This document shows positions 7,175-52,133 of a DNA stretch of 64,000 nt, one piece after another. The DNA lies in contig NZ_AP027272.1 in assembly GCF_036322805.1 (NCBI RefSeq), forward strand, positions 1,488,001 through 1,552,000, written 5' to 3'. The position numbers and the translations under genes were made by a program. Position 1 is the first letter of the stretch; the number at the start of each line of letters is the position of its first letter. Under the pieces are notes generated by a model. The model ran no database searches, was not told the DNA's origin, and saw only the letters and a list, made by a program, of their open reading frames with translations. Source of the DNA: Planctobacterium marinum. GTDB lineage: Bacteria; Pseudomonadota; Gammaproteobacteria; Enterobacterales; Alteromonadaceae.

Positions 7175-10084
7175 TTATTTGAATACTTCATCCACTGGCA
7201 CAACGCTGATGTTGCTCGCTGGGATAGATAACTTGTAATCCTGAATAATGCGATCTTCAGCCAGCAACTCTTCTGGCTTTTCGCTATTGTATTCAAGTGG
7301 CGAAGTCATCTCGGTTGCAAGACGGTTTTTCATATCCTCTGCATCACCCGAAACAAACACATAGTGAATATTTTCGGTTTGCAGATGCTTTTTGATAACA
7401 CGGTTCACATCGTCAACACTTAACTTCTCCAGCTCACTTTTTACGTGGGAGACAAAATCATCAATACCATAAAATTCACTATCCAGGGCATAGCCCAGCT
7501 GCATATCCTGTGAAGATACCAGTTGCGGTGCGAAGTTGAGCAGGAAGTTGCGGGTGGCCTCAAAATCTTCCTGAGTCATGCCGTTTTCAATCAACTTGTC
7601 TAATTCAAACAAGGCTACGCGAGTGGCAAAGTGAGCATCGTTATTGGAGCGAAGCGGTCTTATCCAAACCTGAAAGATTTGTGATGAGCGACCCAGGTTG
7701 GCATTGGGCTTGGTTCTGAACATGCCACGCGGGTAGTATTCGATGTAGGCATAATCCCCGTAGTTCATGCCGCGCACTGCGCGGATACGTTTAAACAGGT
7801 AGCTGTTGGAACTGCGGTGCTCGCCCAGGTATGAACGTGCCAACCACAAAGCAGCCCAGTCTTCACTGCTGCGATTAACATCAATGGGGAAACCAAAGGA
7901 TACCGCGGTTGATTGTGCATTTTTCTCCACGATAGTGGCGTGTTTTCCCTTGAGTACAGGTGCCTTGGCAATGCTTAGTCTATCTTCTTCTCCTTTTGGC
8001 AAACGAGCGAAATCTTGTTTTATTTTAGCCTTGATGGCTGAAGGAATTGCCCCCGTCAAACCCATTTGCAATTTGGCCTGGGTTAACTGACTGGCATAAA
8101 ACGCTTTCAGATCGTCGATGGTTAATGCTTCGATATCTGAAATGTCGCCCAGGTTGTAGCTTTCATAAACATGGCCTTGATACAGTTCATGATAAAGCAC
8201 TTCTTTACCCAGTTCTTCATCATTAGACGATTTCAAGCTGGATTTAATGGCATCAAGCAGTTCTTTTTTCACACGCTTAAAGTCGTCTTCTCGCCATCCA
8301 GGGTTCAGGATTTGGTCACTGATCAGGGCATACCATTGTGCTACGTTGTCCTGGTGCACACGCCCGGTAAATGACATCATTTCTTTATCTAGTTGCGCGT
8401 TAAAAGAGCCCGCTAGTGGATAGAGCTTTTGTTGTATTTCTTTGAAGGTTTTCGATTCAGAGCCCCCTTGTGTCAGCATGCTGGCTGTTAATGCCGCCAC
8501 ACCTTTTTTACCCTCAGGCTCCGCTGCCGCACCAGTATAGAACAAGATGTTGATGTCAATCAGCGGTGAGGAATTAGTGCGATCTACGATGGTAAACTCA
8601 GGAGCAGGTGGAGCCACTGAAGCTTCGACTACCAGTTGCTCTAAAGACACTTCCTGTTCAAATCCGGCAATGGCATCCAGTGCGGATAATGTCACAGTGG
8701 TACGGTTACTGTCGATATAGTATTGGTTGGCTAAATTTTTAATATCTTGAGCGGTAATTTTATCAAAGCTTTGGTAAAGCTCATTGATTACTTCAGGGTC
8801 GCGTTTAAAGTGCATGTAGCTTGTCAAAGTAGAGGCAATGGCCTCTGATGAGTCCAGGCTGTTGACAAAACTGTATTTCAAATTTGATTTGAGGTTAGCT
8901 AGTTTTTCGTCGTCAACTAACTCAGTGCGTGCTTTGGCGTAAGTGCGATTGATAGCATCACGTACTGTTACCAAATCCGCTTCTTCCTGAACTTTTACAA
9001 ACACGTGGCGCAAGCCGGTATCTTTGGTATTGGGGTTGTAGGTAAACATTTGACTGGCAATTTGCTTATCAACTACAAGCTCTTGATAAAGATCAGAGTT
9101 ATCGGAAAAGTACAGCTCTGACAATAGATCTAAGCCAGCCCGGTCCTTTTTATTGGGTATCCAGGGAGCGCCTTTGTATGACACCAACAGCCAGTGGCCT
9201 GGCAGGCCGTCATATTTCTCATGAAAATAGCGCGGTGCAGTTTGCTCTGGCTCTTGCGGCACAACTGATTTGAAGTCACCTCTTTCCCAGTCACCCCAAT
9301 ATTGTTTAATTAAATCAAGGGTGGCTTTCGGATCAACATCGCCGGCTATTACTAGTGACACGTATTCGGGCTTGTAGAAGCGGTTAAAGAACTCCTGACC
9401 GTATGCCATTTGATCTGGCATTGCCTCGATGTCTTCAAAAAATCCCATGGTTGTGTGTTCATAAGTATGCACATCGTAGGCTTCTTTTCTCACGGCAGAC
9501 AACAACTTTCGAATAGGACTGGCGTTGTTTTTTAAATACTCGCCTTTTACCGTGAGAGCCTCTGTTCTGAATTGAGCTTCAGTGTAGTGAAGATTCTGAA
9601 AGTGGTCGGCGAGGATCTCTAAAACCGTTTCTAAATGCTGTTTGGAAAAATCCGCGTGATAGTTGGTGTAATCATTTGTGGTATAGCCACCGTAGTCGAC
9701 GCCAGCGCTTTTGAATACTTCGGTGTATTGGCTATCTGGAAACTTCTTAGAGCCCTTAAACATCATATGTTCGAAAAAGTGAGCAAATCCGGTTTTGCCT
9801 TTTTCGACTTCATCTCGGGAACCCGCTGATACCGGAATTTGCAGTGATACTAAGTCTGGGTAGTCGGTTTTTACCACCATCACTTTCAGACCGTTATCGA
9901 GTTCCTCTAAAACATAGTCTTGAGTGAAGACTTTTTTCGTCTCAGAAGATTTGGCTTGCTCTTTGAAGCTGGACTTGTTGCTGTAGCCGTCTTTGGTTTT
10001 GCTATTGGTGTCTACCACCACCATGCAACTTGCAAGACTGATACTCGCGGCAACGGCTGTAACCGTTTTTATAATAGATTTCAT
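7175..10084 (-). CDS. M16 family zinc metallopeptidase, lipoprotein
   Basis: The 969-residue protein carries a lipoprotein signal (LASC, lipidated Cys at residue 20), so it is anchored in an envelope membrane facing the periplasm. The zinc site of the M16 (pitrilysin/insulinase) clan is intact: HFFEH at residues 102-106 and the distal Glu at 182 in TVKGEYLKN. Two M16 halves are present, as expected for the family: the active N-terminal half and a second, inactive half from about residue 510. It would degrade peptides in the periplasm. The gene is monocistronic, with a ~360-bp gap upstream. Start ATG and signal sequence agree. Confidence 0.95.
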   Translation of the reverse strand: MKSIIKTVTAVAASISLASCMVVVDTNSKTKDGYSNKSSFKEQAKSSETKKVFTQDYVLEELDNGLKVMVVKTDYPDLVSLQIPVSAGSRDEVEKGKTGFAHFFEHMMFKGSKKFPDSQYTEVFKSAGVDYGGYTTNDYTNYHADFSKQHLETVLEILADHFQNLHYTEAQFRTEALTVKGEYLKNNASPIRKLLSAVRKEAYDVHTYEHTTMGFFEDIEAMPDQMAYGQEFFNRFYKPEYVSLVIAGDVDPKATLDLIKQYWGDWERGDFKSVVPQEPEQTAPRYFHEKYDGLPGHWLLVSYKGAPWIPNKKDRAGLDLLSELYFSDNSDLYQELVVDKQIASQMFTYNPNTKDTGLRHVFVKVQEEADLVTVRDAINRTYAKARTELVDDEKLANLKSNLKYSFVNSLDSSEAIASTLTSYMHFKRDPEVINELYQSFDKITAQDIKNLANQYYIDSNRTTVTLSALDAIAGFEQEVSLEQLVVEASVAPPAPEFTIVDRTNSSPLIDINILFYTGAAAEPEGKKGVAALTASMLTQGGSESKTFKEIQQKLYPLAGSFNAQLDKEMMSFTGRVHQDNVAQWYALISDQILNPGWREDDFKRVKKELLDAIKSSLKSSNDEELGKEVLYHELYQGHVYESYNLGDISDIEALTIDDLKAFYASQLTQAKLQMGLTGAIPSAIKAKIKQDFARLPKGEEDRLSIAKAPVLKGKHATIVEKNAQSTAVSFGFPIDVNRSSEDWAALWLARSYLGEHRSSNSYLFKRIRAVRGMNYGDYAYIEYYPRGMFRTKPNANLGRSSQIFQVWIRPLRSNNDAHFATRVALFELDKLIENGMTQEDFEATRNFLLNFAPQLVSSQDMQLGYALDSEFYGIDDFVSHVKSELEKLSVDDVNRVIKKHLQTENIHYVFVSGDAEDMKNRLATEMTSPLEYNSEKPEELLAEDRIIQDYKLSIPASNISVVPVDEVFK

Positions 10085-48603: not shown

Positions 48604-49467
48604 ATGACAATACGCGCAACTCTCGTGGTTTCAGGACCGCTGCAAGCCGGTGTAGCGGCCGCTCTTACCCAATTCGTTTACAAGAATAATGGCAATATCA
48701 CTGATTTTGATCAGTACGTTGACGTTGAAACTGAGCCGCGTATGTTCTTCGCCCGAATGGAGTGGGAACTGGAAGGCTTTCAGGTGCCTGAAAATGAGAT
48801 TATCCACGCACTAAAAGCAGATATTAATGGCAAATACCAGTTAACACTGGACCTGCGTATCATGGACCGGCCCCTAAAGATGGCCATCATGGTCACCAAA
48901 CAATTACCCTGTTTTTACGGTATGTTGGCTAAAATACTGTCTCATGAATGGAATGTTGAGCCAACTTTGGTGGTAAGTAATCGCATGGACATGGAAGTGG
49001 ACGCTAAGCGCTTTGATTTACCCTTTCACCACTTACCGATTACGCCAGAAACCCGTGAGGCGCAAGGAGAAAAAGCGCTGGTACTGTTTGAGCAAAACGA
49101 TATAGATGTGGTGGTGCTGGCCAAGTACATGCAGATCATACCGCCTAATGTTTTATCCCGCTGGTCTGGCCGTATGATCAATATTCACCATTCCATGTTG
49201 CCTGCCTTTGTAGGGGCAAAGCCTTATCATCAAGCCCGAGAATACGGTGTTAAATTTATCGGTGCTACGGCGCATTACGTTACCGAAGAGCTGGATGAAG
49301 GGCCCATCATCATGCAAAACGTCAAACCCATAACCCATCGTCAGACCGCTGATGAACTGGTTAACATGGGCAAGTCCATCGAAACTGAAACCTTACTGCG
49401 AGCAGTGGAGCTGCACCTGCAGCATCGCATCGTGATATCAGGACGTCGCTCTATTATTTTTGATTAA
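48604..49467 (+). CDS. purU: Formyltetrahydrofolate deformylase
   Basis: PurU hydrolyses 10-formyl-tetrahydrofolate to formate and tetrahydrofolate, balancing the one-carbon pool. The 287-residue protein has an N-terminal ACT domain (residues 1-85) and a formyltransferase-type catalytic domain with Asn 193 (MINIHHSMLPAFVGAKPY), His 224 (IGATAHYVTEEL) and Asp 231. Length is the usual one. It lies 39 bp after the GGDEF-EAL gene. About 109 bp after its stop begins structured repeat A on the same strand, and serA is convergent beyond. Confidence 0.95.
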   Translation: MTIRATLVVSGPLQAGVAAALTQFVYKNNGNITDFDQYVDVETEPRMFFARMEWELEGFQVPENEIIHALKADINGKYQLTLDLRIMDRPLKMAIMVTKQLPCFYGMLAKILSHEWNVEPTLVVSNRMDMEVDAKRFDLPFHHLPITPETREAQGEKALVLFEQNDIDVVVLAKYMQIIPPNVLSRWSGRMINIHHSMLPAFVGAKPYHQAREYGVKFIGATAHYVTEELDEGPIIMQNVKPITHRQTADELVNMGKSIETETLLRAVELHLQHRIVISGRRSIIFD

Positions 49468-49575
49468 TACTGTGGATTCAGCTTAATTACCTTCTATGTA
49501 GCTCAAGGAAAACGCGTGGGGATGTTTCTGTTTTCTGCTATAGGTTAATGTTCATTACTTCGATGTGTTTTTTTC

Positions 49576-49778
49576 TTAGGGGCGATCCCCTAAAACCCCC
49601 TTTTATCCCAGCGCGAGAAAACATAAGCCGCCTGTGAAGAACCTGAAAGACCGACAATGATGGCCCGTCCCTGCGCCAGCATTGTCTGAGACATCATCCC
49701 TGATGTCACTCTTTCCGGTTTCTTCTTCAACGGAGGCTTAACTCGCACAAGGAAAGGATTCTTACGGACTTCGAATTC
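49576..49778 (+). repeat. Structured repeat element, copy A
   Basis: This ~203-bp element has the same architecture as copy B at 50391-50591 on the other strand. In order: a hairpin TTAGGGG-CGAT-CCCCTAA (49576-49593); a spacer with CCCCCTTTT; an outer arm GCGCGAG (49611-49617) closing with CTCGC (49742-49746); AAGCC with GGCTT; GACAATG (49653-49659) with CATTGTC (49680-49686); an apical stem TGGC/GCCA around the loop CCGTCCCTGC; a side hairpin GACATCA-TCCC-TGATGTC (49690-49707); a returning arm TCTTTC...TTCTTC; and a tail ending ACTTCGAATT. It starts 109 bp after the purU stop. There is no open reading frame inside. I do not recognise the family. Confidence 0.8.
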
Positions 49779-49818
49779 GCTATCGGTTGATTATTGAAAA
49801 AACTTAGAGTCTCTTCAT

Positions 49819-50196
49819 TTATTTTAAGGTTCTCTCGCAGGAAATAATCCCTTTTTTCTTCTTAAAATTATCTGGATTATCTACCGTTTTGTACCAACCA
49901 GTTCCCTCTGGAATAAGCGATACAGCCATAACGGGTATCAATTCTGTTTTATCTTGTATAATCTTATAGCCATGTGGGCAGAGTTCACTAGCTCTTCTCT
50001 GCCAAAGTTTTTTAACTTGTGATTCAGACGTGTAGTTATTTCCCATATATACAACTTTGTATATACCATCTCCAATTTTTTGATCGCTATATCCGCCTGG
50101 TGGCCCAAAACTTTGCTCTGTTCCCAATTCTCTATATGTAGAGGAGCAAGCCGCCAACACTGAAAACAAAACAACACAAATAATACGTTTGATCAT
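49819..50196 (-). CDS. Small lipoprotein (CC0125/CC1285-like)
   Basis: The 125-residue product has a lipoprotein signal with LAAC (lipidated Cys 17). The mature part carries GPPGGYSDQKIGDGIYKVVY and a following Asn-x-Tyr-Thr and Cys-containing helix (LWQRRASELCPHGYKI), which resembles the CC0125/CC1285 family of envelope lipoproteins; two Cys near residues 67 and 120 could form a disulfide. The gene is visibly richer in A+T than its neighbours and has no obvious ribosome binding site. It is flanked on both sides by inverted copies of a structured repeat, which suggests acquisition as a unit. Function is unknown. Confidence 0.72.
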   Translation of the reverse strand: MIKRIICVVLFSVLAACSSTYRELGTEQSFGPPGGYSDQKIGDGIYKVVYMGNNYTSESQVKKLWQRRASELCPHGYKIIQDKTELIPVMAVSLIPEGTGWYKTVDNPDNFKKKKGIISCERTLK

Positions 50197-50390
50197 AAGT
50201 TTGAGTATTCCATTTTTAACCTTGAGATTAATTGCCTAAGGCCTCCCAAACTTTAATCTGATTATTTAACAACAAATCTGGCAGAGAAAACTTTTTCTTA
50301 TTTTATTTCTAGATAATTGGCCGACAGCTTCACGACAAGAACGTCATTGAGTAAAGTCATGCAAAACTCAGTTAAATAATACCCCATCGT

Positions 50391-50591
50391 TAATTCGAAG
50401 TGCGGATAATTCTGGCCCTTTCGCGAGATAAGTCGAAAGAGCAGATAAAACCTGAAGATCGGCAACAAGGATGTTGCCTAAGTCAATGCTAGCGCGGGGA
50501 CGTGCTATCATTGACGGTCTTCAGGTTCTGCGATTGAGGCTTATGCTGTCTCGCGTCCGGGCCAAAAGGGGGGGAAGGGGATCTCCCCTTC
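50391..50591 (-). repeat. Structured repeat element, copy B
   Basis: On the minus strand this ~201-bp element runs parallel to copy A: hairpin GAAGGGGA-GA-TCCCCTTC (50574-50591), CCCCCCTTTT spacer, outer arm ACGCGAGA with closing TCTCGCG, GCAGAACCTGAAGA with TCTTCAGGTTTTATCTGC, GTCAATG with CATTGAC (50482-50488 and 50509-50515), apical TAGC/GCTA around ACGTCCCCGC, side hairpin GGCAACA-TCCT-TGTTGCC (50461-50478), tail ending ACTTCGAATT. Where it differs from copy A in a stem, the partner base usually changes too. It begins about 112 bp after the serA stop, in the same direction as serA. Confidence 0.8.
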
Positions 50592-50665
50592 GGAAGTGAT
50601 ATATAAGCACCAAACTTAAAGATATACATTTATCTTTAAATCTGCGCTATCAAACGATTGACTCG

Positions 50666-50702: not shown

Positions 50703-51932
50703 TTAGTGCAGGATTCGGGTTTTAATCGTGCCGTTAATGGCTTGCAGCGCCTGGAAGGCATCTTCTGCGTGGTCGGTTTCTACATCAATAACCACATAAC
50801 CAATATTTTCATTGGTTTGCAGGTACTGAGCCGCGATATTGACATTCATTTCCGTAAACGCCTGGTTGATTTGCGTTAGCACACCAGGAGCATTTTTGTG
50901 AATGTGCAACAGGCGAGAGCGACCGATGTGCTCTGGCAAAGATACTTCAGGAAAGTTAACCGCAGACAGTGTTGAACCATTGTCGCTGTATTTCGCAATT
51001 TTACCGGCTACTTCTTTACCGATATTCTCCTGTGCTTCTTGTGTGCTGCCTCCGACGTGGGGAGTGAGGATCACGTTGTCAAACTCGCGCAGTGGCGACA
51101 CAAATTCTTCGCTGTTAGATTTCGGCTCTACCGGGAATACATCAATTGCGGCACCGCCAATTTTGTTAGCACGTAGTGCGTCTGCTAGAGCATCGATATC
51201 CACCACTGTACCTCTGGAGGCATTGATTAAAATCGCCCCTTGTTTCATCACTTCCAGCTCGGCAGCGCCAATCATATCTTTGGTAGACGGCGTTTCAGGT
51301 ACATGCAGGGAGACCACATCGGATGTTTTCAATAGCTCAGTTAAAGAGGCCACTTGTTCGGCATTACCTAGCACCAACTTATCTTCAATGTCGTAAAAGC
51401 GCACTTTCATGCCCAGGTGCTCTGCCAAAATTGAAAGTTGTGTACCAATGTGTCCGTAACCGATGATACCCAGGGTTTTACCACGGGCCTCATAGCTACC
51501 CACCGCGCTTTTATCCCAGCCGCCATTGTGAGCATGAGCGTTTTTAGCCGGAATACCGCGTAACAACAGAATGATTTCACCTAGCACCAGTTCCGCCACA
51601 GAGCGAGTATTAGAAAATGGTGCATTGAAAACGGGAATGCCTCGGGCTTGTGTAGCAATCAGATCAACCTGGTTGGTGCCAATACAAAAACAACCTACTG
51701 CCACTAATTTAGATGCTGCAGCGACCACTTGTTCTGTGAGCTGGGTTCTGGAGCGGATACCGATAAAGTGCACATCGGCGACTTTTTCCATTAATTCTGC
51801 TTCAGGCAGGGAAGTCTTAAGGTATTCAATGTTGCTGTAACCTTGGTTTTTCAGGGTTTCCAGGGCACTCTGATGTACGCCTTCTAACAACAGGATTTTA
51901 ATCTTATCTTTTGGGAGAGAAACTTTACTCAT
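50703..51932 (-). CDS. serA: D-3-phosphoglycerate dehydrogenase
   Basis: SerA catalyses the first step of serine synthesis from 3-phosphoglycerate. The start at 51932 (MSKVSLPKDKIKILLLEGVH) gives 409 residues, the E. coli length; the frame upstream is open but carries no domain. Motifs are GCFCIGTNQVDL, the NAD loop TLGIIGYGHIGTQLSILAEH, INASRGTVVDIDALADAL, the catalytic His in ILTPHVGGSTQEAQENIG and a C-terminal ACT domain (feedback by serine, IGYVVIDVETDHAEDAFQAL). The leader carries MetJ-like boxes at 52014-52029. It lies downstream of rpiA on the same strand, but with its own promoter region. Confidence 0.97.
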   Translation of the reverse strand: MSKVSLPKDKIKILLLEGVHQSALETLKNQGYSNIEYLKTSLPEAELMEKVADVHFIGIRSRTQLTEQVVAAASKLVAVGCFCIGTNQVDLIATQARGIPVFNAPFSNTRSVAELVLGEIILLLRGIPAKNAHAHNGGWDKSAVGSYEARGKTLGIIGYGHIGTQLSILAEHLGMKVRFYDIEDKLVLGNAEQVASLTELLKTSDVVSLHVPETPSTKDMIGAAELEVMKQGAILINASRGTVVDIDALADALRANKIGGAAIDVFPVEPKSNSEEFVSPLREFDNVILTPHVGGSTQEAQENIGKEVAGKIAKYSDNGSTLSAVNFPEVSLPEHIGRSRLLHIHKNAPGVLTQINQAFTEMNVNIAAQYLQTNENIGYVVIDVETDHAEDAFQALQAINGTIKTRILH

Positions 51933-52013
51933 GGTGAATATACCTTGAAACTTCAATAGCTTAGCGAAAACAGAAACGCTATTCGTGGTTCGAATTCGCA
52001 GATAATGTAAATT

Positions 52014-52029
52014 AGATGTCTGGACGTCT
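52014..52029 (-). promoter_or_regulatory. MetJ-type boxes upstream of serA
   Basis: On the minus strand AGACGTCC AGACATCT are two adjacent boxes, each seven of eight to the MetJ consensus AGACGTCT. TAGACG overlapping the first box and CATTAT 17 bases downstream could be the -35 and -10 of serA, the same layout as at metK and the DUF481 gene. The boxes lie about 80 bp before the serA start. MetJ binding is inference. Confidence 0.75.
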
Positions 52030-52133
52030 AAAGTGGGTTGCGCAACAATAGCAAATTGCACGTGAACTGCAAGCCTTTATTTTGCAGGCAACCCATTATT
52101 TATTAATGTATAGAAAGGCCACATAACGGCAGG

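Follow-up and report, generated by a model that had tools for sequence, protein, structure and literature searches.

The window analyzed here is the whole stretch of 64,000 nucleotides from the genome of Planctobacterium marinum. The locus of interest in this window lies between two genes, one at 48604-49467 on the plus strand and one at 50703-52061 on the minus strand, which are putatively purU and serA, respectively; their orthologs in a second genome of the genus (G001) are 86% identical over 288 aa and 89% identical over 454 aa. The interval contains two copies of a repeat (copy A and copy B) and, between them on the minus strand (49819-50196), an ORF of 125 aa that is assigned to the CC0125/CC1285 family lipoproteins (NCBIfam NF047637, 42.8 bits; cut-off 40) and that has no match in Pfam. 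The G+C content between A and B is 35.6% vs 45.3% in the window. Farther along the window, a 6S RNA (RF00013; 60194-60374, minus strand, 76.1 bits) is the only Rfam match that exceeds its gathering score. In what follows, G000 is the genome to which the window belongs, G001 and G002 are the other two genomes of the genus, and L numbers designate chromosomal regions (loci).

An earlier reading made from the letters alone (the sequence-only reading) had described two inverted copies of ~200 bp, A on the plus strand and B on the minus strand. Both copies and their inverted orientation are borne out; however, the element is longer, about 260 bp, as judged from an nhmmer profile of the copies in the genus. 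With this profile, copy A extends from 49536 to 49797 (model positions 3-263, 222.4 bits) and copy B from 50374 to 50628 (model positions 3-261, 236.4 bits). We describe their parts on the proposed RNA strand, that is, minus for A and plus for B, the opposite of the strands in the earlier reading. The structured, TwoAYGGAY-like core of A (49601-49758; 140.6 bits with R1, a covariance model that we built from 22 full copies in the genus and in which A and B are each one row) contains a side hairpin (49690-49707; loop CAGGGATG on the minus strand, 49695-49702) and an apical hairpin (49653-49686; loop CAGGGACG on the minus strand, 49666-49673); an outer hairpin, TTAGGGG/CCCCTAA, lies at 49576-49593. 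The corresponding parts of B are the core (50411-50567, 177.2 bits with R1), the side hairpin (50461-50478; loop CAAGGATG, 50466-50473), the apical hairpin (50482-50515; loop CGGGGACG, 50495-50502, which differs from CANGGANG at the A), and the outer hairpin, GAAGGGG/CCCCTTC (50574-50591).

A fold kept by compensatory change

In the 51-pair core of A and B, 38 pairs are unchanged, six are changed on both sides, one is changed on one side, and six are non-standard in one or both copies, the imperfect pairing being chiefly in A; the outer hairpin adds two further pairs that differ on both arms. Every stem comparison that the earlier reading had listed is found in the sequence, as are the compensatory changes in at least six pairs that it had counted. 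In addition, A and B each fold better than all 200 of 200 dinucleotide-preserving shuffles (z -4.64 and -7.79, respectively).

The 22 full copies, which come from two species of the genus, carry this argument further. Both-side changes are present in 23 of the 51 pairs; shuffles give a mean of 12.7 such pairs, with as high a count in 0 of 500. When the partner is slid along the alignment, just four to six pairs have both-side changes, and the proportion of paired cells is 34.4 to 42.2% vs 95.3% with the true partner, although the structure was derived from the same 22-copy alignment, so the slid control is biased in its favor. The outer hairpin is fully paired in 20 of the 22 copies, with four sequence variants; one of the remaining copies has a mismatch and the other lacks part of the hairpin. 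The covariation of the element is genuine and the fold has been kept, which was the core claim of the earlier reading. These data bear also on another explanation, that is, that the copies are decayed, non-functional repeats that persist solely through recent amplification. The unpaired positions in A and the fragments found in the genome are what decay would leave; however, the compensatory change over 22 copies exceeds that in all 500 shuffles and the loop letters are kept across genera, so we regard this explanation as very improbable.

Relationship to TwoAYGGAY and a proposed link to CsrA

We scanned the stretch against all Rfam families with a relaxed threshold (up to E 10). The best two of the six matches are to RF01731, the TwoAYGGAY family, one per copy (E 2.1e-4 and 2.2e-4): A matches at 49617-49747 on the minus strand with 39.2 bits and B at 50421-50547 on the plus strand with 39.3 bits, both under the gathering score of 43, so these matches are not reported by a default-threshold scan of the whole window. 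Each match spans model positions 1-168 of 168, and the outer stem, side hairpin, and apical hairpin occur in A and B in the same order as in RF01731. The genome has nine RF01731 matches at E<=1, five of which are over the cut-off; the nine include A and do not include B. Of five regions fetched and scanned for comparison, four contain RF01731 matches at E<=1, which together make up six sister copies. A and B are plainly homologous to the sister copies in this genome that pass the gathering score; we conclude that they are homologues of accepted TwoAYGGAY members, even with scores of their own below it. The earlier reading had recognized no described family in the element, and it had set a comparison with Rfam beforehand as the test of that statement; with RF01731 matching both copies (E about 2e-4) and sister copies above the gathering score, that statement is largely refuted. 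Of the possibilities raised in that reading, a structured RNA is the best for A and B.

The TwoAYGGAY family shares an Rfam clan (CL00106) with CsrB of Escherichia coli (RF00018), and its Rfam type label is Cis-reg. In PMC2864571 the TwoAYGGAY motif is considered a probable RNA that is probably neither cis-regulatory nor a riboswitch, and it is recorded from the human gut, gamma-Proteobacteria, and Clostridiales. A part of PMC4333381 (2014) puts TwoAYGGAY forward as CsrA-binding, as a hypothesis.

A search of 73 loci with R1 gave 104 matches, and 76 distinct copies were retained after antisense shadows and identical sequences were dropped. Read on the strand of the TwoAYGGAY matches, the side and apical loops have the common form CA-N-GGA-N-G, with each fixed letter present in 71 to 76 of the 76 copies: in the side loop C74 A74 N G75 G74 A73 N G73, and in the apical loop C71 A75 N G75 G76 A75 N G74. 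The first N varies freely: the side loop has G35/T27/A11/C1 and the apical loop has G31/T26/C9/A7. At the second N, T predominates in the side loop, and T or C is usual in the apical loop. The stem letters beside the loops vary together. Because the copies were gathered with a model built from the genus, the constancy of the fixed letters is in part a product of the search, whereas the freedom of N is not. At least two occurrences of CANGGANG are found in 58 of the 76 copies, one in 17, and none in one.

The strict AYGGAY pattern is found in none of the four loops in the window (AGGGAT, AGGGAC, AAGGAT, and GGGGAC on the RNA strand); the relaxed ANGGAN pattern is found in three of the four, and some other copies carry ATGGAT. 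Each window copy has two GGA loop motifs, A with two CANGGANG and B with one CANGGANG and CGGGGACG. The apical loop CGTCCCYGCG, reported as conserved in the sequence-only reading, is the complement of the GGA loop. The consensus site for CsrA/RsmE is CANGGANG with flanking A/U. In an excerpt of PMC5864184, A(N)GGA is called the typical CsrA motif, and according to a passage in PMC4333381 such motifs are located in hairpin loops and are generally paired, CsrA being a homodimer. The CA-N-GGA-N-G pattern is thus a predicted CsrA-type site.

The relative numbers of G-U and A-C pairs lean toward an RNA on the TwoAYGGAY strand. The ratio is 35 to 21 in the 63 pairs that are common to the folds of both strands, 19 to 12 (a small excess) when counted by pairs in the genus alignment, 139 to 66 in the 76 rows, and 81 to 52 when just the 48 rows with the lowest scores, all of them outside R1, are considered; these counts are of non-independent events, so the evidence is moderate. 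The opposite strand, that of the earlier reading, was ruled out as the RNA strand by the Rfam match, the GGA loops, and the G-U excess. A sigma-70 promoter near the 5' end of the RNA was also rejected: the -10-like letters there are weak and variable, and a scan of the window found neither a sigma-70-like promoter at the expected place nor a terminator-like site. A terminator-like site is present downstream of none of the 28 genus copies and of nine of the 48 other copies vs four of 48 on the opposite strand, used as a control.

The choice of strand is also relevant to the proposal that the element is the 3'-end, or a terminator/attenuator, of a neighbor's mRNA that acts in cis on the strand of the earlier reading. 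Many copies, as judged by eye, begin ~70-160 bp past the stop codon of a gene coded on that strand, and the Cis-reg label in Rfam would agree; however, the region in the window contains no terminator-like site, the opposite strand is the one that has the GGA loops, matches Rfam, and shows the excess of G-U, and the neighboring genes differ from copy to copy. We consider a cis-acting element improbable.

The P. marinum genome contains one CsrA gene (a single PF02599 match, G000:C1:3256582-3256737, E 6.8e-25), and CsrA is matched in 56 of the 59 genomes searched. CsrB (RF00018) has no match at E<=1 in the P. marinum genome; among the 59 relatives CsrB is matched in 23 (9 over the cut-off) and RF01731 in 22 (13 over the cut-off). 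Planctobacterium is a member of the Alteromonadaceae, the same family as Alteromonas, and in a sample of 147 genomes of the family R1 has matches in 30; the presence of TwoAYGGAY is patchy though CsrA is nearly universal. Even within the genus, G002 has no RF01731 or R1 match under stricter filters. A simple replacement of CsrB by TwoAYGGAY is not supported, because both are matched in some genomes (such as G025 and G044).

We think it likely that A and B are a divergent pair of TwoAYGGAY-type RNA genes that act as CsrA decoys. They would be genes, or the relics of genes, that each specify a structured small RNA of this kind and that are placed back to back, with the RNA of A read from the minus strand, the RNA of B read from the plus strand, their 5' ends facing, and the lipoprotein ORF between them. 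Each RNA would start near the AATTCGAAGT/AGTTCGAAGT box and would have a length of ~150-260 nt; it would form a long stem and two hairpins with loops that present CA-N-GGA-N-G, and one CsrA dimer could hold both loops at once. As a decoy, the RNA would withdraw CsrA from its mRNA targets, like CsrB and RsmZ. The element itself is amplified and dispersed in the genus. We infer transcription from the proposed strand, binding of CsrA, and its sequestration; both window copies are presumed to be active, A with several unpaired positions and B without the A in one loop.

Dispersal of the element and the genes between divergent copies

The element is dispersed. With R1, the P. marinum genome has 12 places with >100 bits, besides fragments (which keep either end of the element) and antisense shadows, and G001 has 20 matches. 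When 14 copy-holding regions of G000 were compared with nine of G001 (which has further copies outside these nine), long flanks were common to one pair, L021/L077. Three loci carry the element in one species and seem to lack it in the other, a pattern that is compatible with loss or gain: the flanking genes of the window site are separated by 1235 bp in G000 vs about 50 bp in G001, a second site (L134) measures about 420 bp in G000 vs about 70 bp in G001, and a third (L082 of G001) is shorter by 563 bp in G000. Neither a sharp junction nor a target-site duplication is readable at these three loci. At the L024 site the two flanks are non-adjacent in both G001 and G002, and this comparison is not clear.

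Several mobile origins were tried and set aside. Copy B has no match at E<=1e-3 in phage and plasmid collections; a pattern scan gave two matches in viral contigs and 54 in genome contigs, and none of the 49 of these 56 stretches that are outside P. marinum has an R1 match at E<=0.01, so an origin in phages or plasmids was ruled against. Retrotransposition with 5'-truncated copies was dropped because the fragments retain either end. An integron attC-like reading had been suggested by copies in other genera that are 600-800 bp apart and by the accessory genes that copies flank; it was dropped because the copies do not keep to one orientation with respect to the genes that they enclose, and neighboring copies are sometimes inverted.

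A broader alternative is that the element is mainly a DNA repeat (MITE-like or involved in recombination), the hairpins of which are recognized as folded single-stranded DNA by an enzyme supplied in trans; its match to an RNA family would then reflect a common ancestor or convergence. The dispersed copies (the 12 places in G000 and the 20 matches in G001), the three filled and apparently empty loci, the fragments of either end, and the inverted pairs that enclose protein genes would all be expected of such a repeat. However, no target-site duplication or sharp junction is readable, no transposase is found among the neighbors named by Pfam (30 proteins scanned), copy B is without a phage or plasmid match, G-U exceeds A-C on one strand, and the loops keep exactly the fixed letters of the CsrA site while leaving N free. 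We therefore consider a DNA repeat unlikely, although less so than the cis-acting element, and prefer the RNA decoy.

The survey also revealed variation in the form and placement of the element. Four copies in the same direction occupy about 1.2 kb at L078:6926-8145 (G001), with short spacers that have common sequence. A second sub-type with a different outer hairpin is present at L133, L134, and G001:C15:285796 and 304578; one site that is empty in G001 is occupied in G000 by a copy to which both G001:C15 copies are 89% identical. Many copies in L021-L026 and L076-L088 start, as judged by eye, ~70-160 bp past a stop codon, with the RNA strand against that gene. At L120, successive copies spaced by about 760 bp are each followed, at the same position, by a 78-aa ORF (8805-9041 and 9570-9806), neither of which has a match in Pfam. 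Several copies are near contig ends (L033/G006/G044/G125; for example, G006:C16:214, G033:C8:105, and G025:C28:1076), as expected of near-identical repeats that break assemblies.

The arrangement of A and B recurs. After seven loci were dropped as the same places, 26 pairs of neighboring R1 copies within 8 kb remained, of which 11 are divergent as RNAs, 11 are in the same direction, and four are convergent; inverted neighbors are, therefore, divergent in 11 of 15 cases. The four convergent pairs are all in alternating arrays, where their gaps are 218-286 bp vs 80-122 bp for divergent neighbors. Two more close divergent pairs (G021 and G033) are visible solely with the Rfam model. With 12 copies in the P. 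marinum genome, 0.19 pairs within 7 kb are expected by chance and three are seen (the window, L021, and L024). In other genera, L122, L098, L104, and L110 contain alternating copies of two loop types; the spacer of 80-122 bp between divergent neighbors there is a common one in which certain letters recur, and it may be a promoter region used by both.

The gaps of six of the 11 divergent pairs are 80-163 bp; the other five contain protein genes. These are the lipoprotein gene in the window (NF047637), a DUF3800 gene in L021, genes for a nucleotidyltransferase and two proteins without a Pfam match in L077, genes for an FG-GAP/Tc-like protein, a PIN protein, ParE, and ParD in L024, and an FRG gene in L079. 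The FG-GAP protein of L024 (7413-11099, minus strand) has 1228 aa and a Pfam match to the TcdB middle/N-terminal region, and its gene lies between two copies together with the PIN and ParDE genes. PADLOC models match five of ten proteins from near copies at E<=1e-3, two of them weakly, and do not match the window lipoprotein at this threshold. An argument against purely defence-like cargo is a wide divergent pair in L129 of G044: the genes within its span of about 7.7 kb are those for an ABC transporter set, an amidohydrolase, and an IclR regulator.

At the orthologous site L021/L077 the divergent pair is present in both species, but its contents differ: one species has DUF3800 there and the other has three different genes. 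In a tree of the copies, L021_7397 and L077_6544 group with A in a clade of six rows (99/96), whereas B belongs to a clade of five rows (98/96) that also contains L021_5856, L024_13074, and both right-hand copies of L077; because the partners are in separate clades, local duplication did not give rise to these pairs. It is conceivable, and we offer the idea tentatively, that divergent pairs of CsrA-sponge RNAs bound slots in which genes are exchanged. Each pair would consist of RNA elements from two different lineages, back to back; the pair would spread to new sites downstream of genes, and accessory genes (toxin-antitoxin, DUF3800, FRG, nucleotidyltransferase, lipoprotein) would come and go between them; the gain of a slot would shift the dose of CsrA decoy. 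If so, the acquisition of genes would be tied to a global post-transcriptional regulator, an unexpected connection.

Comparison with known systems

A search of the literature by title and abstract (TwoAYGGAY, CsrA with repeats or mobile elements, Alteromonas CsrA, Planctobacterium, and RsmY with MITE) found nothing that describes these dispersed pairs. TwoAYGGAY has been listed since 2010 and its connection to CsrA was suggested in 2014, and the portions of the sources that we consulted contain no experimental test. P. marinum would allow a direct one: this marine bacterium can be cultured and has about a dozen natural variants of the element alongside a single CsrA gene, and there are two sister species in which the sets of copies differ.

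Like TwoAYGGAY, the elements described here are a long stem with two GGA-loop hairpins. They differ in having ANGGAN instead of AYGGAY loops and an outer hairpin (49576-49593 and 50574-50591) that is outside the Rfam match, as well as in their many dispersed copies and divergent pairs, a description of which we did not find for TwoAYGGAY in the excerpts available.

CsrB carries many CsrA sites per RNA, more than two. CsrB/RsmB, CsrC, and RsmX/Y/Z resemble the elements in their GGA motifs in hairpin loops, in clan membership (CL00106, CsrB), and in the mechanism that we propose; the elements, which are known here from their sequences, differ in having two sites per RNA and many dispersed copies vs few loci. 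MITE/REP-type repeats are, like the elements, short, structured, multicopy, and mostly intergenic. The elements differ from such repeats in that their loop letters are conserved as predicted protein-binding sites; no target-site duplication is readable.

Similar by description are Aln1a-c of Alteromonas macleodii Te101, presented in an excerpt of PMC5864184 as three sRNAs that are highly expressed, resemble CsrA sponges, and carry A(N)GGA motifs. According to that excerpt, with which the elements are compared by description only, Aln1a-c are encoded by one 404-bp locus with three sRNAs; they share with the elements the bacterial family, the occurrence of several adjacent copies, the A(N)GGA motifs, and the proposed role as a CsrA sponge. 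The TwoAYGGAY family and the CsrA-sponge mechanism (PMC4333381, 2014) are known or proposed already; the form specific to the genus, its dispersal, and its pairing around exchangeable genes are new here.
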